The translations under genes were made by a program, and so were the position numbers. 34,564 nt of DNA from Acidobacteriota bacterium (GTDB lineage: Bacteria > Acidobacteriota > Terriglobia > Bryobacterales > Bryobacteraceae), in the NCBI GenBank assembly GCA_016870915.1, contig VFZY01000045.1, positions 1-34,564 on the forward strand. Reading direction: 5' to 3'. The notes beneath the pieces are model-generated. The model had not been told where the DNA came from, ran no database searches, and was given only the letters and a program-made list of their open reading frames with translations. This document shows positions 9,743 through 34,304 of this stretch, in pieces (the stretch's first letter is position 1; each line of letters opens with the position of its first letter).

Positions 9743-10849
9743 CTACCGCTTTTTGCGCATCGTGGGCCCGAACGCGCTCGGCTTCGCCACAGCCTCATAG
9801 GCAGCCGCCGATGTCTCCACCGCCGCTCCGCGCCCCGGCCCGGCCGCAACCCGCGGGCGCTCCTCCGGCAAATCCGCAATCCGCGTCGGAAGCGGAGCCG
9901 CCGCGCGCACAGCCGGCGTCCGCGCCTCTAAGGTCGTCACCGACGCTCGCGCCTCTAAGCCCGTCATCGGCGCTCGCGCCTCTAGGCCCGTCATCGGCGT
10001 TCGCGCCTCTAGGCCCGTCACCGACGCACGCGCGGGCGCGGCAGGAACTTCCACCACCGGAGACAACTCCGCGGAAGGCTTACCCTTCCCCTCGTCCTGC
10101 TTCTGCACCGGCTCCGACTTCCCGCCAAAGTCGTTCAGGATCACCACATCCACCCGCCGGTTCTGCTGGCGTCCTTCCGCCGTGTCGTTCGGCGCCACCG
10201 GAACCGTGTCCGCAAAGCCCACAATCGCCATCCGGCTCCGCGAAATCGCGAACATCTCCGCCAGCACCTCCAGCATCGCAATGCTGCGCGCCGCCGAAAG
10301 CTCCCAGTTGCTCTGGAACCGCGCCGACCGGATCGGTGTCGAATCCGTGTGGCCCTCAAGCCGCACCGGATTCCGCACCGCCGCAATCGATGCCGCCACC
10401 TTCTCGATAATCGGCAGCGCATCCTCGTTCAACTGGTCGCTCGCCGGCGGAAAAAACGCCGCCTCCCGCATGCTGATCACGAGCCCCCGCGCCTCCAGAT
10501 CCACCTGGACCTTCCCCTCCGACACTTCCTGCTTCAGCACCTCGTTCAACCGGTGGAGCGACGGAACCAATTCCGCCCGGGCCATCTCCGCCGCGGCCGA
10601 GTCATGCTTCTGGTCCTTCTCTCCCGGAATCTTGTGATCCCCCGACATCCCCGAAAGTGCACGCTGCAGCGCCCCGCTCTCGAACGCCTCTTTCATCGAA
10701 CGCGACAACTCAGCCACTTTGCCTTTATCCGACTGGCTGTTGGCGAACATCACCACAAAAAACGCGAACAGCAAAGTGATGAAGTCCGCATACGACACAA
10801 GCCACCGCTCGTGGTTCTCGTGCTCAGCGTGTGGCTTGCGCCGCGACAT
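9743..10849 (-). CDS. motB: Flagellar motor stator protein MotB with repeat-bearing tail
   Basis: The 368-residue protein has the MotB plan. A short cytoplasmic start is followed by one membrane segment, SYADFITLLFAFFVVMFA (19-36), containing Asp22, the expected proton-binding residue. Next come a linker and an OmpA-like peptidoglycan-binding domain (about 120-242) with LEGHTDSTPIRSARF and NWELSAARSIAMLEVL. Together with MotA it anchors the stator to the cell wall and drives rotation. The unusual part is a C-terminal extension of about 125 residues that contains four 9-residue repeats (275-310) and ends in a basic MRKKR. Most MotB proteins stop soon after the OmpA domain. It is 6 bases after motA. 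Confidence 0.92.
   Translation of the reverse strand: MSRRKPHAEHENHERWLVSYADFITLLFAFFVVMFANSQSDKGKVAELSRSMKEAFESGALQRALSGMSGDHKIPGEKDQKHDSAAAEMARAELVPSLHRLNEVLKQEVSEGKVQVDLEARGLVISMREAAFFPPASDQLNEDALPIIEKVAASIAAVRNPVRLEGHTDSTPIRSARFQSNWELSAARSIAMLEVLAEMFAISRSRMAIVGFADTVPVAPNDTAEGRQQNRRVDVVILNDFGGKSEPVQKQDEGKGKPSAELSPVVEVPAAPARASVTGLEARTPMTGLEARAPMTGLEARASVTTLEARTPAVRAAAPLPTRIADLPEERPRVAAGPGRGAAVETSAAAYEAVAKPSAFGPTMRKKR
9920..10027 (-). repeat. Four 27-base tandem repeats inside motB
   Basis: Four in-frame units encode ASVTGLEAR, TPMTGLEAR, APMTGLEAR and ASVTTLEAR. They lie in the tail after the peptidoglycan-binding domain. Being a multiple of three, changes in copy number would alter tail length without breaking the gene. 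Confidence 0.9.
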
Positions 10850-19001: not shown

Positions 19002-20417
19002 ATGAACTGCCAGGACCATCTTTGGAAAAATCGTCCCGCCGGCGAAGTCAGCCGCCGCTGGTTCCTCGAACAGTGCGGCATCGGTCTCGGTGGCATGGCC
19101 CTCGCCCAACTCGCCGGCGCCGCCTCCACGGACCCCCTCGCGCCCAAGAAGCCCCACTTCGACGCCCGCGCCAAACGTGTCATCTTCCTCTTCATGGCCG
19201 GCGCGCCCAGCCACCTCGAACTCTTCGACAACAAGCCCCAACTCGCCAAATTCGACGGAACCCTGCCTCCCGCCGATCTCCTCAAGGGCTACCGCGCCGC
19301 CTTCATCAACCCCAACTCCAAACTCCTCGGCCCCAAGTTCAAATTCGCCCGCCACGGCCAGTCCGGCGCCGAAATTTCGGAGCTTCTCCCGCACACCGCC
19401 CGCATCGCCGACAAGCTCACCATCGTCCGTGGCATGACCACCGACGCCTTCAACCACGCCCCCGGCCAACTGCTCATGAACACCGGTTCCCAGCAGTTCG
19501 GCCGCCCCTCCATGGGCGCCTGGGTCACCTACGGCCTCGGCAGCGAAACCCGCGATCTTCCGTCGTTCGTCGTCTTCTCCTCCGGCAAAAAAGGACCCTC
19601 CGGCGGTAACTCCTGCTGGGGCTCCGGCTTCCTCCCCACCGTCCATCAGGGCGTCCAGTTCCGCGGCTCCGGCGAGCCCGTTCTCTACCTCGCCAACCCG
19701 CCCGGCGTCGACAACCAGCTCCAGCGCGATTCGCTCGATACCCTCGGCCGCCTCAACCGCATGCGGCTCGATACCGTCGGCGATCCCGAAATCGCCACCC
19801 GCATCAGCTCCTTCGAAATGGCGTTCCGCATGCAAAGCGTCGCCCCCGAAGTCATGGATATCTCAAAGGAGCCCCAGCACACGCTCGACCTCTACGGCGC
19901 CGTCCCCGGCAAACCCTCCTTCGCCAATAACTGCCTGCTCGCCCGCCGCCTCGTCGAAAAAGGCGTCCGCTTCGTCCAGCTCTATCACGAAGCCTGGGAC
20001 CAGCACGGCAGCCTCGTCAAGGACATTCAGGAAAACTGCAGGAACACGGATCAGGCCGCCGCCGCCCTCGTCACCGATCTCGAACAACGCGGCCTCCTCA
20101 AGGACACCATCGTCGTCTGGGGCGGGGAATTCGGCCGCACCCCCATGGTCCAGGGCGGCTCCGATGGCCGCGATCATCATCCCAACGCCTTCACCATGTG
20201 GCTCGCCGGCGGCGGCTTCAAGCCCGGCATCACCCACGGCGAATCGGACGAACTCGGCTTCAACGTCACCCGCGGCAAGGTCCACGTCCATGACCTTCAT
20301 GCCACCATGCTCAACCAGTTGGGCTTCGATCATACCCGCCTCACATTCCGCTTCCAGGGCCGCGATTACCGGCTCACCGATGTCCACGGCAGCGTGGTGC
20401 GAGAGTTACTCACTTGA
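19002..20417 (+). CDS. Tat-exported DUF1501 protein
   Basis: The 471-residue product carries a twin-arginine signal, [20 protein letters not shown] (17-36). It then shows the DUF1501 pattern: [52 protein letters not shown], and near the end [20 protein letters not shown] and [14 protein letters not shown]. The family is sulfatase/alkaline-phosphatase-like in fold, but its reaction is not known. It is almost always next to a DUF1549/DUF1553 cytochrome, as here, and the two probably form one exported system. The last four bases overlap the next gene (TTGA). Confidence 0.9.
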
Positions 20418-21160: not shown

Positions 21161-23305
21161 ATGCCGGCCTCCACGCTCAGCTTCCGGGTCCACGGCCTCG
21201 ATTGCGCCGAGGAGGTCTCTCTCCTCCGCCATGCCCTCGATGGCCGCCAAGGCGTCCTCGGCCTTGCCTTCGATGTGGTCAATGCCCGTATGACCATCGA
21301 ACTCGATCCCGAGCTCATCGACGCTCCGGCCATCCAGAAAGCCGTCGCCGGAACCGGCCTCCGCGCCGAACCCTGGCGCGACCAGCCCACCGCCGGTCCC
21401 GCCGCCTCCTGGCTCGCCACCCACAGCCGCTCCGTGCTCACCATCGCCAGCGGCCTCGCCGTCCTGGGGACCATGGTCGACCACGCCCTGCGCAGCGGCA
21501 ACTCCTCCCTGGCCTTCCTCTCCCACGAAGATGAGGCCCACTCCGCCCGCGCCATCGCTCTCTGCTCCATGGCCATCGCCTCCGGCATGTACTACTTCCT
21601 GCCCAAGGCCTGGTTTGCCATCCGCCACCGCCGGCCGGACATGAACGTCCTGGTCTCCATCTCCATCGCCGGAGCCATCTATCTGGGCCAATGGTCGGAA
21701 GGCGCCACTCTCGCCTTCCTCTTCTCCCTCGCCAATCTGCTCGAATCCTGGAGCCTCGCCAAAGCGCGCGGCTCCATCGGCCAGCTCCTCAACGCCGGTC
21801 CCCGTGAAGCCTCCGTCGTCCACCACGACCACGAACACCGCACCCCGCTTGACCGCGTTCCGGTCGGCGCCACCGTCCGCGTCCGCCCCGGCGAACGCAT
21901 CCCCTTCGACGGCGAAGTCTCCGCCGGCGCCTCCGGCGTCAATCAGGCGCCCATCACCGGCGAGTCCGTCCCCGTCCTCAAGCGCCCGGGCGATTCTGTC
22001 TACGCCGGCTCCGTCAACGGCGAAGGCCTTCTCGACATCCGCACCACCCGCGCCGCCCACGACACTACGCTCGCCCGCATCGTCCGCATGGTCGAATCCT
22101 GCCAGACCCGCCGCGCTCCCTCGGAACAGTTCCTCGAACGCTTCGCCCGCATCTACACCCCGGTCATGATCGCGCTCGCCGCCGCCGTCGCGCTGGTGCC
22201 GCCCCTGTTTGATGGCCGCTGGCCGCACTGGTTCTACCAGAGCATGGTCATCCTGCTCATCTCCTGCCCCTGCGCCCTGGTGATTTCGACGCCCGTGACA
22301 ATCGCCGCCGCCCTCGCCTCAGCCGCCCGTCGCGGCATGCTCATCAAGGGCGGAGCCTATCTCGAGATCGCCTCCCGCATTCGCGCTATCGCCTTCGACA
22401 AGACCGGCGTCCTCACCGCCGGCCAGCCTCGCGTCGAAGCCTTCGAACCGCTCAACGGCCACAAGACGGAGGACGTTCTGCGCCGCGTCGCCTCCATCGA
22501 GCAGTCGAGCGAACACCCGCTCGGCCGCGCCATCCTCCGCTACTGCCAGGAACAGGGCATCCGCCCCGCGCCCTCGGCCGGATTCCAAGCCCTGCCGGGG
22601 CTCGGCGCCGAAGCCACCATCGACGGGGAAGCATTCTGGATCGGCAGCAGCCGCATGCTCGCCGCCAGACACGGCGTTGCCGAAACCGCCGGAGACAGTG
22701 GCCACACCGCCGTCTTCTGCGGCGGCGCCGACGGCCCCTGGGCCCGCATCGGCCTCACGGATCTGCCCAAACCGGAAGCCGCCGAAGCCGTCCACGCCCT
22801 GCGCGGCCAGGGGATCGGCACGCTTGTGATGCTCACCGGAGACAACCCGGCAACCGCCCGCGCCGTCGCTTCGGAACTCGGCTTCGATCAGGCCCACGCG
22901 GAACTCCTGCCGGAGGACAAGGCAAACCACATCGCCTCACTCCGCACCCGCCACGGCGCGGTGGCCATGGTCGGCGACGGCATCAATGATGCGCAAGCCC
23001 TCGCCGCCGCCTCGCTCGGCATCGCCGTCGGAACCCGCAGCACCGATGTCGCGCTCGAAACCGCGGACGTCGTCCTGGTCACCGATGACCTCCGCCGCAT
23101 CGCCGCCCTCATCCATCACTCACGCCGGGCCTTTGCCATCGTCAAGCAGAACGTCGCCTTCGCCCTAGCCACCAAGCTCATCTTCCTGGTAGTGGCATTC
23201 CTCGATCTGGCCACCCTCTGGATGGCCGTCGCCGCGGACATGGGCGCCACGCTGCTGGTCACCTTCAACGGGCTCCGCATGTTGAGAACCGGGAGCCTCC
23301 GATGA
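21161..23305 (+). CDS. zntA: P1B-type ATPase, Zn/Cd/Pb exporter
   Basis: The 714-residue product has the full P-type ATPase set: TGES (266-269), the ion-site CPC motif (369-371), the phosphorylated Asp413 in AFDKTGVLTAG, SSEHPLG (HP at 452-453) and VGDGINDAQAL. The N-terminal HMA domain has GLDCAEEV in place of GMxCxxC, a single-Cys variant known in zinc/cadmium pumps. In the last helices ATKLIFLVV and AADMGATLLVTFNGLRML place a Lys and an Asp where ZntA has its Zn/Cd selectivity residues. It should expel Zn, Cd or Pb. A His cluster (HHDHEH, 221-226) may add metal affinity. It starts the base after the GNAT stop. Its last 48 bases recur almost exactly at 23662-23709. Confidence 0.9.
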   Translation: MPASTLSFRVHGLDCAEEVSLLRHALDGRQGVLGLAFDVVNARMTIELDPELIDAPAIQKAVAGTGLRAEPWRDQPTAGPAASWLATHSRSVLTIASGLAVLGTMVDHALRSGNSSLAFLSHEDEAHSARAIALCSMAIASGMYYFLPKAWFAIRHRRPDMNVLVSISIAGAIYLGQWSEGATLAFLFSLANLLESWSLAKARGSIGQLLNAGPREASVVHHDHEHRTPLDRVPVGATVRVRPGERIPFDGEVSAGASGVNQAPITGESVPVLKRPGDSVYAGSVNGEGLLDIRTTRAAHDTTLARIVRMVESCQTRRAPSEQFLERFARIYTPVMIALAAAVALVPPLFDGRWPHWFYQSMVILLISCPCALVISTPVTIAAALASAARRGMLIKGGAYLEIASRIRAIAFDKTGVLTAGQPRVEAFEPLNGHKTEDVLRRVASIEQSSEHPLGRAILRYCQEQGIRPAPSAGFQALPGLGAEATIDGEAFWIGSSRMLAARHGVAETAGDSGHTAVFCGGADGPWARIGLTDLPKPEAAEAVHALRGQGIGTLVMLTGDNPATARAVASELGFDQAHAELLPEDKANHIASLRTRHGAVAMVGDGINDAQALAAASLGIAVGTRSTDVALETADVVLVTDDLRRIAALIHHSRRAFAIVKQNVAFALATKLIFLVVAFLDLATLWMAVAADMGATLLVTFNGLRMLRTGSLR
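23258..23305 (+). repeat. Flanking direct repeat, copy 1 (3' end of the ATPase gene)
   Basis: These 48 bases encode the ATPase end [15 protein letters not shown] plus the stop. About 41-42 of 48 bases match copy 2 at 23662-23709, and the last 33 bases differ at only two positions. The two copies bound the tandem array. Confidence 0.85.
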
Positions 23306-23709
23306 ACACCCCTAATCCCCGCGCCCCGGAACCACGCCCCGTTCCGAGCCACGACCGCGAGGGAGTGCCCAAGGTCGCCACCGTCAACAGGCTCCCCATT
23401 CCGAGCCACGACCGCGAGGGAGTGTCCACAGTCGCCACCGTCAACAGGCTCCCCGTTCCGAGCCACGACCACGAGGGAGTGCCCAAGGTCGCAACCTTCA
23501 AAAGGCTCCCCGTTCCGAGCCACGACCGCGAGGGAGTGTCCACAGTCGCCACCGTCAACAGGCTCCCCATTCCGAGCCACGACCGCGAGGGAGTGTCCAC
23601 AGTCGCCACCGTCAACAGGCTCCCCATTCCGAGCCACGACCGCGAGGGAGTGCCCAAGGCCGCCACCTTCAACAAACTCCGCCTGTTGACAACCGGGAGC
23701 CTCCGATGA
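23302..23709 (+). CDS. Repeat-filled small ORF of doubtful coding status
   Basis: An open frame of 135 codons exactly fills the space between the ATPase and moaB, overlapping both by four bases (ATGA at each end). It is almost wholly a 19-residue repeat whose consensus is [19 protein letters not shown]. The end, [15 protein letters not shown], copies the tail of the ATPase. Because the DNA period is 57 bases, a multiple of three, several frames are open on both strands, so the frame alone is weak evidence. There is no domain, signal peptide or membrane segment. If translated it would be a low-complexity charged protein. It may instead be a by-product of repeat expansion that keeps translational coupling between its neighbours. 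Confidence 0.3.
23344..23685 (+). repeat. Tandem array of six 57-base repeats
   Basis: Units begin with CCGAGCCACGACC at 23344, 23401, 23458, 23515, 23572 and 23629, exactly 57 bases apart. They are near-identical, with a variable segment reading either GTGTCCACAG or GTGCCCAAGG. The last unit runs into copy 2 of the flanking direct repeat. The core GAGCCACGACCGCGAGGG is related, in reverse orientation, to the array at 34021-34260. Confidence 0.95.
23662..23709 (+). repeat. Flanking direct repeat, copy 2 (moaB start junction)
   Basis: This is the second copy of the ATPase 3' end, finishing with the same CCTCCGATGA in which the ATG is the moaB start. Loss of the array by recombination between the copies would leave the ATPase stop overlapping the moaB start. 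Confidence 0.85.
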
Positions 23710-24212
23710 GCGCCACCCTCCACAAATCGAAGGCCGAATCCAAGGGCCCGGTCCACATCGCCATCGTCACCGTCAGCGACACGCGCACGCCGGAAACGGA
23801 TCTCAACGGCCAGTTCCTCCGTCACGCCATCGAAACCTCCGGCCACATCGTAAGCGGCTACCGGATCATTCCCGATGAGCCCGCCGACGTCGCCCTGATG
23901 CTCGACACCTTCTGCGCCGGCGACACACAGGTTGTGCTCTGGAACGGAGGCACGGGCATCTCACCACGCGACACAACGTATGACGTCCTTGCGCGGCGTC
24001 TTGAAAAAACGCTGCCCGGCTTCGGAGAACTCTTCCGCATGCTCAGCTACGAACAAGTGGGCGCCGCCGCCATGCTGTCGCGCGCCACGGCCGGCGTCTA
24101 TCGTGGCCGCGTGGTCTTCTCCACACCGGGCTCCAACGCCGCCGTGCGCCTGGCCTGGGAGAAACTCATTCTCCCTGAGCTGAAGCACCTGGCCTGGGAG
24201 GTGACCCGCTGA
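23706..24212 (+). CDS. moaB: MoaB/MogA-type molybdenum cofactor protein
   Basis: The 168-residue product has the MoaB pattern: [20 protein letters not shown] at the N-terminus, then [38 protein letters not shown] and [20 protein letters not shown]. The GGTGISPRD loop binds molybdopterin. Proteins of this family adenylylate molybdopterin (MogA) or have a related role (MoaB); length and the sequence after PRD fit MoaB. No other molybdenum-cofactor gene is nearby. The ATG overlaps the stop of the repeat ORF. The last 47 bases overlap the end of the convergent sulfatase gene. Confidence 0.9.
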
Positions 24213-25560
24213 GCAATTTTTCAAGACGCGCCACCGTGGCCGGCTCGCGAGCCGAGATGTCCTCGTTCTCGCCCGGGTCCCGCGCCAGGTCGAACAGGCC
24301 GCTTTGGGCGAAGCCCCGGGTCAGCTTGTAGCGCCCGTCCCAGACGGTGCGCCACTCATCGAGCCCGCTTCGCACATGGCTTCGATGCCGGTCCGTCGCG
24401 CCCGCCAGCACCGGGCGTAGCGAACGGCTGTCCATGTCGCCGGGCGTCGGAATCCCGGCCCAGTCCAGGAACGTCGACGCCAGATCGATGTGGCTCACCA
24501 GCGCATCGGTCGAGTGGCCGCGGCGAACACCGGGTCCGGCAACCACAAGCGGCACGCCGATCGAAGCCTGATACGGCACGGTCTTGCCCCACCGGTTGTG
24601 GTCGCCCAGCATCTCGCCGTGGTCGCTGCAAAACACAACCAGCGTGTTGTCCAGTTCGCCGCGCTGCTTCAGGCGGTGGAGAAAGATGCCCAGCCAGGCG
24701 TCGATGTTCTCCACCATCGCCGAGTAGTTCTGGCGGATGGCCGTGTGGGTCTTGGCGTCGAACTGCGTGTTGGCGTTGGGCTGCGGGTATTCGCGGCCCC
24801 GGCAAAGGCCGTCCATGCGCCGCGTGATATCCATCGGGCTGTGGGGCCCGGTAAAGTTGAGCATCAGGAACCAAGGCTTGTCCTTGGGTGCGCGGTCAAG
24901 CAGCGCCAGGCCGTTCCGGGCGATGTAGTTGTCGCAGTAGGCATCCTCGGGCAGCGGCGTTGGCGCGGTGTGGGCGTAGTTGCCCTTCTGGCCCCGCTCA
25001 TGGAAGTCCTCAACGTGCGTGGCGGCCAGGCCGCTCGCATGCAGGTACGCCATGTAGGGATCTTTGGGAGTCTTGGCGCCGCTTCGGATAGCATCATGCT
25101 TGCCGGCGTTGTCGATGGCGTCCGAGTAGCCCCACTCGCGTGTCAGGCGGCGGCCGTCCAGGCCCCAGTCCTGGGTCTTCTTATGAAGATCCACTTTGCC
25201 GCAGGCCATGGTGTGATAGCCGGCCTCGCGCAGCAGAGTGTAGAAGGTTCGCTGCTCCACCGGATAGTCCTGGCCGTTGTTGCGGACGCCGCAGCGTTCG
25301 TACTCGCGGCCCGATGCCAGGCAGGCGCGTGACGGCGCGCAGAGCGGCGACGCCACCACGGCGCGGCGGAAGTTCACGCCGCGCGCGGCCAGGGCGTTGA
25401 GATTGGGCGTGCGGACGTCGACGGACTTGTTGGCGCCGGTCCAGTCAAATCGCAACTGGTCGGGAAAGAAGAAGAGGATGTTGGGGCGCTTGCCTTGCGG
25501 CGCGCCCAGGGCGCTGCCGGCGGTGGCGCTGGCGGTGAGGGTGAAGGTTCTTCGGGTCAT
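24166..25560 (-). CDS. Sulfatase
   Basis: A 464-residue sulfatase with a short export-like start ([20 protein letters not shown]). [15 protein letters not shown] gives the first metal-site segment, with PDQ in place of the more usual [18 protein letters not shown] holds Cys74, the residue to be converted to formylglycine, and [19 protein letters not shown] closes the metal site. These features suit the choline-sulfatase/iduronate-sulfatase-like side of the family; the substrate is not known. Its ATG overlaps the stop of the preceding sulfatase by four bases, so the two are probably made together. The last 16 codons lie antisense to the end of moaB. Confidence 0.9.
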
Positions 25561-26966
25561 GCTGTAAGGCCCCAGCCCGGCTTGGTGACGTCGGCCCTGT
25601 CGCCGGCCTCAGCCAGGTGTTTTTGCAGGAGTGTTCGCAGCCCGGCCACACGCTTGGGTTGCGCCGCGGCCAGGTTGTTCATTTCGAACGGATCGGATTT
25701 CAGGTCGAAGAGTTGGACGGTTTCCTTGCCGGCCACGTTGTAGAGGATCAGCTTCCAGTCGCCTTGCGTAACGCCGCGCTGTACGTCGCGGTAGGCAAAG
25801 AACAGGCTGTCGCGGTGGGCGGCGCGCGGGTTTGTGAACAGAGGCCGCAGGCTGCGGGCGGTCACGGTGTCGGGCATCGTGGAGCCGCTCAGGTCGATGA
25901 CGGTCGGGCAGACGTCGCTCAGGTAGCAGAGCGCGTCGCAGATGGAGTTCTTGGGGATGCCGGGGCCGCGGATGATCAGTGGCACGCGCACGCTGTGGTC
26001 GTACAGGTTCTGCTTGCCCATCAGGCCGTGATGGCCCACGGCCAGGCCGTTGTCGGCGGCGAAGACGACGTAGGTGTTCTCCGAATCGCCGCTCGCTTCA
26101 AGCGCGTCGAGGATGCGCCCGATCTGGGCGTCCACCTCGGAGATCATCGCGTAGTATTCGGCGATCTGTTTGCGCGTGTCTTCGGGTGTGCGCGGAAACG
26201 GGGCCAGCAGTTCGTCGCGAACCTTCAGTTCGCCGTTGTCGAAAGGATGCTGGGGCAGGAAGTTTTTGGGCAGTGCGACCTTGTCCGCGCTGTACCAGCC
26301 GGAGTAGGGCTTAGGCGCCATGCGAGGATCGTGCGGGGAGGTGAAGGCAGTGTAGAGCAGGAACGGTTTGTCTTGAGGACGGTTCTTCAGAAAGTCGATG
26401 GCGGCGTCGGCGAAAAGCTGGCTGGAGAACGTGCTCGTGACCGTGATCTTGTCCTTGGGATACCGGCCTGTCGGGTCCAAAGGGTTCGCGTCAACGCGGT
26501 CATGGTACTGCATGCCGCCGAGGAAGATACTTGCGCCGTGGGAGAAAGCGCGGGCATGCAGTGGGCCGCCGTTGTGCCACTTGCCGGTGGCGAAGGTGGC
26601 CCAGCCGTTCTTTCGCAGCACCTCGGGGAACATGTCGAACGGCCGCCGCTCGCTGGCCGGGAAGTTGTTCGGGGCGATGATGCTCCGGTGGATATGGAAG
26701 AGCGCCTGGCCCGTTATCAGCATGGCGCGGCTTGGTGCGCAGACGGCGGGAATGGTTCCGCCCATGATGTGGGCCTTGCGGAAGGCCATGCCGGAACGGA
26801 CCAGCCGGTCCATGTTCGGCGTGCGGACCTCGGGGTGCCCCAGCGCTGCGATGGTGTCAAAGCGCTGGTCGTCGGTGAACAGGATCAGAAAATTGGGAGC
26901 GCGCCGCCGCTGCGCGGTGGCAGAGGCGGCAACGCCGGAAGCAAGAAGGGCCCGGCGGGTAAGCAT
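25557..26966 (-). CDS. Tat-exported sulfatase
   Basis: The frame is open up to 27086, but ATG 26966 gives MLTRRALLASGVAASATAQ, a twin-arginine-like export signal, and 469 residues. PNFLILFTDDQRFDT is the first metal-binding segment, AVCAPSRAMLITG holds the formylglycine Cys76, and VVFAADNGLAVGHHGLMGK completes the metal site. An internal NGWATFATGKWHNGG is typical. This is a different subgroup from the downstream sulfatase, although they overlap by four bases (ATGA) as an operon. No ribosome binding site precedes 26966; a TATTCT lies eight bases upstream of it, compatible with a leaderless transcript. Confidence 0.9.
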   Translation of the reverse strand: MLTRRALLASGVAASATAQRRRAPNFLILFTDDQRFDTIAALGHPEVRTPNMDRLVRSGMAFRKAHIMGGTIPAVCAPSRAMLITGQALFHIHRSIIAPNNFPASERRPFDMFPEVLRKNGWATFATGKWHNGGPLHARAFSHGASIFLGGMQYHDRVDANPLDPTGRYPKDKITVTSTFSSQLFADAAIDFLKNRPQDKPFLLYTAFTSPHDPRMAPKPYSGWYSADKVALPKNFLPQHPFDNGELKVRDELLAPFPRTPEDTRKQIAEYYAMISEVDAQIGRILDALEASGDSENTYVVFAADNGLAVGHHGLMGKQNLYDHSVRVPLIIRGPGIPKNSICDALCYLSDVCPTVIDLSGSTMPDTVTARSLRPLFTNPRAAHRDSLFFAYRDVQRGVTQGDWKLILYNVAGKETVQLFDLKSDPFEMNNLAAAQPKRVAGLRTLLQKHLAEAGDRADVTKPGWGLTA

Positions 26967-26974
26967 CACAGTAC

Positions 26975-26980
26975 AGAATA
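26975..26980 (-). promoter_or_regulatory. Candidate -10 element for the minus-strand sulfatase pair
   Basis: Read on the minus strand this is TATTCT, eight bases before ATG 26966. The divergent sulfatase starts at 27005, so both promoters must fit in or beyond a 38-base gap. There is no clear -35 box. Confidence 0.25.
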
Positions 26981-27004
26981 CAAGGAATAGGATGGGGTAG
27001 CCTA

Positions 27005-28315
27005 ATGAGGATGATTTCACGCAGAAGCATGTTGACGGCGCTGGCCGCGGCCCCGGCCGCGAGCATGGCCCAAACGCGCAAGCCAAACTTCGTTTTTCTT
27101 TTCGCCGACGACATGGGTTGGGGCGATGTCGGTTTCAACGGGCGCAAGGAATGGTCCACGCCGAACCTCGACAAACTGGGCCGCGAGGGCACCATCTTTG
27201 ACCGCTGGTACACCGCCTGCCCGCTCTGCGCTCCCTCGCGCGCCGCGCTCATGACCGGCAAGTACAACATCCACAACGGGGTGCGCAACAACAGCATGGA
27301 CCTGCCGGCCACCGAAGTCACCGTGGCCGAGGCGCTCAAGGCGCAGGGCTACCGCACCGCGCTCTTCGGCAAGTGGCACAAGGGCCGTATGGCCGATGGC
27401 GGCTTCCTCCACCCGCTCGACCAGGGCTTCGATGAGACCTTCGGCTATCTGGATGCCCTCCACGCCTGGGAACACTTTCCAAAGAAGCTCTGGCGCGGGC
27501 GCGAGGAGCAGCCCGTCAAGGGCTATAGCTGCGACCTTCTGGCCGACGAGGCCGTCCGCTTCATCGGCGAAAACCGGAATAATCCCTTCCTGCTCTACGT
27601 GCCCTTCATCGAGCCGCACTTCCTCATCGAAGCGCCCGAGGAAGACGTGGCGCGCTTCAAGGGCAAGTTCTCCGAGAAGGACCCGTCCAAGCCCTTCAAC
27701 GCCAACTACGCCGCCATGATCACCCGGCTTGACCGCGCCATCGGCCGCATCGTCGCGGCCATCGATCAGGCCGGCCTCGGCCGCGATACCGTCATCGTCT
27801 TCACCAGCGACAACGGCGCCACCTTCGAAAAAGGCAACGAGGGCGCCTCCAACTTCCACGACAGCAATCGCCCTTTCCGTGGTCAAAAGCGCAGCCTCGA
27901 AGAGGGCGGTATCCGCGAGCCTGGCATCGTGCGCTGGACGGGCCATGTGCCGGCCGGCAAGCGAAGCACAGTGCCCATGCACAACATCGATATCCTGCCC
28001 ACCTTCGTTGCCGCCGCCGGCTCCAAGCCGGACCCTGCCTGGAAAGTGGATGGAGCCAACATGCTCGATGTCTGGCTCGGCCGTTCGAACGGTCCCGAAA
28101 GGACTCTCTTCTGGGACTTCCGCATCGAAGGCGTCGACATGGCCGCCGCCATGCGCGGGGACCACAAACTGCTGGTCGTCGGGGGCCACCGCTCGCTCTA
28201 CAACGTCCGCACGGACCCCGGGGAGCGGCGCACGCTGGGTCCGGAAATGCCGGACCTCTTCAAGCAACTCGACGGCGAACTGAAAGCCTGGTTGGCAACG
28301 GAGGTGAAGCGCTAA
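27005..28315 (+). CDS. Tat-exported sulfatase
   Basis: A 436-residue sulfatase beginning MRMISRRSMLTALAAAPAAS, a twin-arginine export signal. ATG 27011 is an alternative start, but a GGATGGGG-type site stands seven bases before 27005. PNFVFLFADDMGWGDVGFNG gives the metal-binding Asp pair, [16 protein letters not shown] holds formylglycine Cys75, and TALFGKWHKGR and VIVFTSDNGATFEKGNEG complete the active site. It resembles arylsulfatase A-type enzymes. It is divergent from the sulfatase pair, and its stop overlaps the end of the M14-like gene by three bases. Confidence 0.92.
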   Translation: MRMISRRSMLTALAAAPAASMAQTRKPNFVFLFADDMGWGDVGFNGRKEWSTPNLDKLGREGTIFDRWYTACPLCAPSRAALMTGKYNIHNGVRNNSMDLPATEVTVAEALKAQGYRTALFGKWHKGRMADGGFLHPLDQGFDETFGYLDALHAWEHFPKKLWRGREEQPVKGYSCDLLADEAVRFIGENRNNPFLLYVPFIEPHFLIEAPEEDVARFKGKFSEKDPSKPFNANYAAMITRLDRAIGRIVAAIDQAGLGRDTVIVFTSDNGATFEKGNEGASNFHDSNRPFRGQKRSLEEGGIREPGIVRWTGHVPAGKRSTVPMHNIDILPTFVAAAGSKPDPAWKVDGANMLDVWLGRSNGPERTLFWDFRIEGVDMAAAMRGDHKLLVVGGHRSLYNVRTDPGERRTLGPEMPDLFKQLDGELKAWLATEVKR

Positions 28316-34016: not shown

Positions 34017-34020
34017 ATGG

Positions 34021-34260
34021 GGATGTTTCGGTTCGGTTGAGTGGCAGGACGCTCCGTTGCCGTCGCGGCTCGGTTGTTGGGGATGTTTCGGTTCGGTTGT
34101 GGGGCGGGACGCTCCGTTGCCGTCGCGGCTCGGTTGTTGGGGATGTTTCGGTTCGGTTGAGTGGCAGGACGCTCCGTTGCCGTCGCGGCTCGGTTGTTGG
34201 GGATGTTTCGGTTCGGTTGAGGGGCAGGACGCTCCGTTGCCGTCGCGGCTCGGTTGAGGG
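34021..34260 (+). repeat. Tandem array of four 60-base repeats
   Basis: Four units of exactly 60 bases start at 34021, 34081, 34141 and 34201, each beginning GGATGTTTCGGTTCGGTTG and containing GACGCTCCGTTGCCGTCGCG. A partial unit (GGGATGTTTC) follows at 34260. Frames are open because 60 is a multiple of three, but the product has no protein character. A 27-base stretch, from GGACGCTCC to GGCTCGG, matches the reverse complement of the 57-base array units at 22 of 27 positions. The region from the end of anmK to about 34300 otherwise holds nothing I can identify. Confidence 0.95.
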
Positions 34261-34304
34261 GGGATGTTTCAGACTAAAGAGCGAATGGTCTTCTCGCCGA
34301 CGTG

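Follow-up and report, generated by a model that had tools for sequence, protein, structure and literature searches.

How does a tandem array come to lie between two genes and leave both of them intact? The question is raised by a stretch of 34,564 nucleotides from a member of the Acidobacteriota (Bryobacteraceae; assembly GCA_016870915.1, contig VFZY01000045.1), hereafter the window, in which six units of 57 bp separate the gene for a heavy-metal translocating P-type ATPase from a moaB-type gene. We conclude that the array is, very probably, a head-to-tail amplification, at the 3' end of the ATPase gene, of a small hairpin element that resembles repetitive extragenic palindromic (REP) sequences and is of the kind associated with class 3 TnpAY1 transposases. 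Each unit consists of the element and a spacer that resembles the tail of the ATPase gene, and a second full copy of this tail abuts moaB; the element family is dispersed and its hairpin covaries. An apparent oddity is thereby tied to a little-studied system of mobile repeats.

The array and the duplicated ATPase tail

The preliminary description of this DNA reported six 57-base repeats between the metal ATPase gene and moaB, and correctly so: Tandem Repeats Finder (TRF) detects a period of 57 at positions 23337-23674 (5.9 copies, 91% matches), and the units occupy 23344-23685. It had further claimed that the last 48 bases of the ATPase gene recur with about six or seven differences, that both copies end in CCTCCGATGA with stop/start overlaps, and that the units echo the ATPase tail, and these observations stand as well. 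Between 23258-23305 and 23662-23709 we counted 6 differences in 48 bases, of which 2 fall within the last 33, and ATGA is present at 23302-23305 and again at 23706-23709. A BLASTN search of this genome with the 3' 406 bp of the ATPase gene (3 of 120 first-look candidates were scored) gave 23664-23709 as the sole other match (89%, E-value 7e-10). The left copy is, judging from the proteins, the original, because the ATPases of relatives end similarly, with VTFNGLRLLR or alike; in this comparison minus-strand loci were printed unturned, so that some of the tails are not those of ATPases.

The likeness between the units and the tail is real at the DNA level. For units 1-5, the final 24 bases, compared in register and ungapped, agree with the opening 24 of the tail at 17-19 positions, as opposed to at most 10 of 24 when one sequence is shifted against the other by 1 to 6 bases in either direction. 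Unit 6 ends in the 24 bases that open the right copy of the tail, and its spacer agrees with those of the other units at 23-26 of 33 positions. Local alignment, a weaker test of this likeness than the in-register comparison, gives unit 1 a score of 27 against the tail (18/21 bases), and over the six units only 0-4 of 2000 dinucleotide shuffles score as high. The leader at 23306-23343 bears no significant likeness to the unit spacer (726 and 154 of 1000 shuffles as high), and a possible truncated seventh unit within it is called from its position, 2.1 such matches being expected by chance in the window.

Two arrays in this genome have amplified the element together with the 3' end of a neighboring gene. 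In the second one, on contig C285, each of the 71-bp units combines the element with the terminal 21 bp, up to and including the stop codon, of a gene encoding an RmlD domain (250 bits). The other end of this array seems to lie on contig C272, the assembly having probably broken there. Two gene-end arrays in one genome make local amplification testable in complete genomes.

A dispersed hairpin element and a Y1 transposase linked to it by position

A dispersed hairpin element, with the foot CNGAG and the stem CCRC-GA-CC / GG-GA-GYGG, accounts for 24 of the 57 bases of each unit. Its core, GAGCCACGACCGCGAGGG, is found on 12 contigs of this genome and also in related genomes. The pattern CCGAGCCRCGACCGYGAGGGAGYG identified 28 sites on 12 contigs with at most 3 mismatches (26 copies with at most 2), compared to none for the reversed pattern; the copy numbers in this genome are lower bounds, because the assembly comprises 367 contigs and several sites lie near contig ends. 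A close variant of the pattern (at most 2 mismatches) is present in 30 of 61 genomes, this one included, with no match to the reversed control in any of the 61, and the highest copy number at this threshold is 285, in one family member. In a draw spread evenly over the phylum, the element was detected in 12 of 297 genomes, again counting this one.

The support for the hairpin comes from covariation over the family and not from folding energy. A scan with the stem positions left free detected 119 sites (66 distinct) in the fetched loci and none with the reversed pattern, and 116 of the 119 form at least 5 of the 6 stem pairs. The stem holds a GA/GA mismatch and the loop has four bases; the positions of foot, loop and mismatch were fixed in the scan and are invariant by construction, and the foot was therefore tested apart. 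Among 65 distinct variants (one of the 66 exceeded the limit of 6 differences and was left out before alignment), 93.3% of cells are paired and 5 of the 6 pairs have changed on both sides; the covariation score was matched by 0 of 500 shuffles, and sliding the partner strand lowered the pairing to 33-54%. With the foot left free, CNGA was found on 94 of 101 hairpins, and an equal quantity of shuffled DNA (1.47 Mb) yielded 0 hairpins. Redundant loci of this genome (L001-L008, L020, L159, L189, L246) were dropped from the hairpin and foot scans, and L276 also from the latter; the loci in the hairpin, foot and orientation scans are not random samples, having mostly been fetched for the element or a Y1 transposase, and some of them overlap. 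The folding energy is no better than that of shuffles for the whole 57-mer (RNA z -0.35; DNA z -0.82) or for the array's own 24-mer (z -1.04).

The element also comes in flavors specific to particular genomes, for instance CCGAGCCGTGACCGCGAGGG in G013 and CCGAACCGCGACTGTCAAGG in G008, several of these flavors having compensated stem changes, as expected if the element and the transposase evolve together; this observation was made with a looser pattern, the reversed control of which has 2 matches in this genome and 1 in genome G030.

The element family is tied by position to one clade of HUH/Y1 transposases, represented here by one gene. The Pfam domain PF01797 (Y1_Tnp) has a single match in this genome, on contig C320, with a copy of the element 4 bp upstream of the TTG codon from which the similarity extends. 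The C320 protein was searched against 200 genomes of the family and has matches in 63, with loci returned for 30 (best per genome, its own included). The element lies at most 400 bp from the transposase gene in 24 of these 30 loci and on both sides of it in 18, usually at a distance of tens of bases and usually inverted. Of 31 further Y1_Tnp loci from element-bearing genomes, 2 contain the element anywhere in the ~3-kb locus; these controls are what remained of 40 loci hand-chosen, not randomly, from the PF01797 matches after exclusion of 9 that fall into the clade. The C320 transposase has the motifs NHVH and YVINHQ, and within its clade Y....Q is present in all 30 loci and the exact NHVH in 19. 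On the same contig (L015, 4357-4584) a frame that reaches the contig end stays open through the element and a series of short HATTAP-like coding repeats; these repeats, upstream of the transposase, may be degenerate pieces of the element.

Arrays or pairs of elements with other spacers were found on three of the other contigs fetched, C146, C234 and C285, and at the right end of the window. In the loci fetched from this genome, all 15 pairs of neighboring elements no more than 200 bp apart, which come from five arrays, are arranged head to tail. In the loci of relatives 23 of 25 close pairs are inverted, a count that excludes L159, L189 and L246 and keeps overlapping loci, some loci being counted twice. 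The array at the right end of the window (34018-34270) and one on contig C234 (L019, 1922-2374) share a similar unit of 60-61 bp and the same variant element, CCGAGCCGCGACGGCAACGGAGCG, as if the whole array had spread or the contigs had once been neighbors.

The features of the locus are collected in Table 1. No Rfam family matched 23100-24000 at gathering thresholds, the comparison of 23240-23730 with plasmids gave no match, and no promoters were predicted; one terminator-like site was reported, on the minus strand, against 0.8 expected. Near the array lie what appear, from their sequences, to be a DUF1501-like gene (19002-20417) and two sulfatase-like genes (24166-27086). Elsewhere in the window, 9921-10033 contains a 27-bp tandem repeat (4.2 copies, 88% matches), its period a multiple of three and the repeat perhaps coding.

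Table 1. Features of the ATPase-moaB locus and the second array (window coordinates)
Feature	Position	Strand	Basis or remark
Heavy-metal translocating P-type ATPase gene	21161..23305	+	ORF; TIGR01525 583.3 bits (cut-off 346.25); Pfam E1-E2_ATPase, Hydrolase, HMA
Left copy of the 48-bp ATPase 3' end, taken as original, ends CCTCCGATGA	23258..23305	+	similar C-termini in relatives
Candidate open frame across the array, ATGA overlap at each end	23302..23709	+	ORF list
Leader of 21 bp, ATPase stop to first element remnant	23306..23326	+	sequence
Possible truncated seventh unit	23327..23343	+	element 5' half CGGAACCACGCCC (1 mismatch to CNGARCCRCGACC) and unit end CCCCGTT
Six 57-bp units, each a 24-bp element and a 33-bp spacer	23344..23685	+	last 24 spacer bases resemble start of ATPase tail
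REP-like element, unit 1	23344..23367	+	
REP-like element, unit 2	23401..23424	+	
REP-like element, unit 3	23458..23481	+	single change, in loop
REP-like element, unit 4	23515..23538	+	
REP-like element, unit 5	23572..23595	+	
REP-like element, unit 6	23629..23652	+	
Right copy of the ATPase 3' end	23662..23709	+	6/48 differences; first 24 bases double as the end of unit 6
moaB-type molybdopterin-binding domain gene	23706..24212	+	PF00994 100.8 bits; TIGR02667 139.6 bits, under cut-off 222.4
Second array, 60-bp units	34018..34270	-	variant element CCGAGCCGCGACGGCAACGGAGCG, inner pair changed on both sides

Origin of the array and the frame that runs through it

We propose that the transposase, or its past activity, put the element at or in the duplicated ATPase tail, and that slippage or unequal recombination between neighboring units would have raised the copy number. 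The 48-bp duplication carries the ATPase stop as well as the ribosome-binding sequence and the start of moaB, and therefore both flanking genes are intact. GGGAG stands 6 nt ahead of both ATGs, in the right copy within the duplicated tail and before moaB, and the 21 closest relatives of the moaB product (59-69% identity) align from residue 2-5, with the right copy of the tail lying directly 5' of the start. Because 57 = 3 x 19 and no stop falls in frame within the unit, the reading frame remains open across the array as far as the stop in the duplicated tail, which would permit ribosomes to pass to moaB. The array itself is most likely selfish or neutral and tolerated because it leaves both genes intact. 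Tandem REPs that include flanking DNA are known in pseudomonads, and therefore landing near a gene end and amplifying there would be ordinary, if neat. The preliminary description had regarded the array as a tandem expansion seeded by the operon junction. The expansion is upheld, bounded as it is by the duplicated tail and built of tail-bearing units; the junction as its seed is not, since the ingredient common to the core-bearing arrays of this genome is the dispersed REP-like hairpin element.

Several points weigh against an origin by amplification of a mobile element. Movement by the transposase is a step that we infer. Neither an empty site nor an intermediate was found among the loci examined, and in other genomes of the family the top-scoring DNA match to the ATPase end is 73% identical. 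No element was found within 1.5 kb downstream of the C320 transposase gene, and 6 of the 30 homologue loci have none within 400 bp. The YVINHQ motif of this transposase has H where the published consensus has E before Q, and the NCBIfam model of REP-associated tyrosine transposases, its best match, scores 36.8 against a cut-off of 80. The outermost pair of the hairpin is the weakest of the six, absent in 17 of 65 variants; in this genome the closing pair is mostly lost (position 25 is G in 1 of 22 of its own sites vs 69 of 79 in relatives), and its copies may now be poor substrates. The reversed control had one match in one genome of the phylum draw. Finally, stretches elsewhere in the window reach local alignment scores of 26, 26 and 24 with units 1, 2 and 3, vs 27, 24 and 22 for the tail, which means that units 2 and 3 align slightly better elsewhere (26 vs 24 and 24 vs 22).

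The ATPase and moaB were found together only in the loci of this genome (129 loci, including 80 ATPase loci and the moaB loci), and the partner gene was detected (E-value 1e-5) in none of 29 further ATPase loci (L160-L188), 23 of the 80, and 29 moaB loci, when both strands were searched over 1.5 or 5 kb per side where the contig allowed; some of these loci were cut by contig ends and some come from the same genomes. The lists of relatives contained no other genome of the same genus. Neither a conserved non-repetitive gene between the ATPase and moaB nor a direct junction of the two was found in the relatives examined.

Among the alternatives, the one that fares best, unlikely as we consider it, is that the array serves as a ribosome ferry and is translated all the way from the ATPase stop to the moaB start, which would keep the two genes coupled as proposed for the mycobacterial interspersed repetitive units (MIRUs). 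The open reading frame (ORF) through the array (135 aa) starts within the ATPase stop and its own stop overlaps the moaB start, both as ATGA, and the GGGAG ahead of both ATGs would suit such coupling; MIRU ORFs are coupled at -4 nt according to a review (PMC12548453). Moreover, among 15 element clusters checked, only this array has an ORF joining two overlaps. However, the overlaps are a consequence of the 48-bp duplication, which requires just a one-in-three match of phase to produce them, the stop-free 57-bp unit keeps the frame open by itself (3 of the 6 frames are free of stops over 23306-23690), and of the codon changes relative to the unit consensus 16 are non-synonymous and 1 is synonymous. 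The singularity of the array also counts the other way. The preliminary description had proposed to check whether other arrays with this core sit at stop/start overlaps too, and no such rule is supported: none of the 14 other clusters (from 11 further contigs and the right end of the window) has an ORF linking overlaps on both sides, and one, L016, has overlap-type codons on both sides with no ORF linking them. The gene context of the clusters was taken from crude frames of at least 100 codons, and several clusters lie inside possibly spurious ORF predictions.

A bolder variant, to which we give little credence, combines the mobile element with coupling: the hairpin element would have entered a coupled junction as a self-made translated linker, the length of which changes by 19 codons per step. 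It would have done so through capture of the upstream stop and of the downstream ribosome-binding sequence and start, and would thus represent, at the same low level of credence, an acidobacterial counterpart of MIRUs that arose from a REP-like system. Coupling, if true, would mean that repeats have a second, different way into an operon that leaves it unbroken.

A simple duplication of the ATPase tail by slippage, seeded by the junction itself and independent of any mobile element, is improbable. The 48-bp duplicated tail and the tail-like spacer are what such slippage would leave; however, the 24 bases of each unit that belong to the dispersed element are absent from the ATPase tail and present at unrelated loci, and the arrays and pairs listed above combine the element with other spacers. 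An assembly artefact or a wrong copy number is still less credible: the draft is fragmented and element sites occur near contig ends (C272, C285, C320, C64, C146, C161), but the units are not identical, differing at several sites, and the sequence on either side of the array is unique. Least probable of all is that a small conserved gene encoding a repeat-rich product separates the ATPase gene from moaB. The 135-codon ORF overlapping at both ends would speak for it; however, this ORF has no homologues in 199 other genomes of the family (E-value ≤1e-5), no NCBIfam family and a single Pfam match, just below the cut-off (Sarcoglycan_2_C, 23.5 bits vs 24.1, over 20 residues, most likely chance), its codon changes are mostly non-synonymous, and the flanking genes were not found together elsewhere.

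Comparison with known systems

Amplification of a REP-like element at a gene end, the origin we favor, is best compared first to the class 3 TnpAY1 system. As described briefly in 2018 in the section of PMC6006769 on this class, its members have REP-like repeats with the foot CnGA and atypical structures, and a transposase with NHVH and Y----Q (YV[VI][AENY]EQ as the consensus in the table), the gene of which is flanked by the elements; about 600 such repeats are given for Solibacter usitatus, and the behavior of the elements is left open in that section. Four features of the present system agree with this account: the CnGA foot at the base of an atypical hairpin (94 of 101 hairpins, and covariation); the motifs NHVH and Y----Q of the transposase, with H in place of E; flanking of the transposase gene by several elements in the clade (24 of 30 loci, both sides in 18), this genome having one, upstream; and high copy number in Acidobacteria (28 here with at most 3 mismatches, and as many as 285 in relatives). 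On these features, with motifs rather than a domain profile as the measure, the element and its transposase appear to be of the class 3 TnpAY1 kind. They differ in that the closing pair is mostly lost from the copies in this genome, and that neither head-to-tail arrays nor gene-end capture are mentioned in the part of the paper that deals with class 3; in the literature searched, with supplementary files and subscription papers outside its scope, we found no tandem arrays of class 3 elements. For its part, the class 3 system gains a hairpin supported by covariation and a test of gene neighborhood over 30 loci.

Canonical REPs associated with tyrosine transposases (RAYTs; NF047646) have a GTAG or GTGG foot, as opposed to CNGAG here, and the transposase scores 36.8 bits against the cut-off of 80 of their model. 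The inverted doublets known as REPINs are also unlike the array, as 0 of 15 close pairs in this genome are inverted (relatives, 23 of 25). In Escherichia coli, according to the passages of PMC2817692 on bacterial interspersed mosaic elements (BIMEs) and RAYT, small palindromic elements are likewise arrayed and tied to a Y1 gene flanked by inverted elements; they have the GTAG foot, and within BIMEs the elements are in opposite orientation and not head to tail. Acidobacterial Y1 transposases flanked by long terminal inverted repeats are noted in the relevant portion of PMC3733652.

With respect to tandem repetition together with flanking DNA, the closest likeness is to the REP/REPIN clusters of Pseudomonas fluorescens SBW25 (PMC3116915) and the GTAG REP clusters (PMC3733652), in which the tandem copies take in stretches of the DNA beside them; there are also REPs that provide stop codons or sit in ORFs, as stated in the sections on such clusters in both papers. 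These belong to another family with a GTAG-type foot, those of SBW25 are mostly inverted doublets, and the same sections make no mention of a junction with stop/start overlaps.

The nearest known case of coupled repeats is that of the MIRUs, mycobacterial repeats whose ORF overlaps the neighboring gene by 4 nt (PMC12548453, in its portion on MIRUs). The likeness is one of layout, the same overlap of -4 nt being found at 23302-23305 and 23706-23709; in contrast, the array ORF bears no sign of selection on its product, and it occurs at one site in this genome. Altogether, the array represents a familiar type of mobile repeat at an uncommon site.

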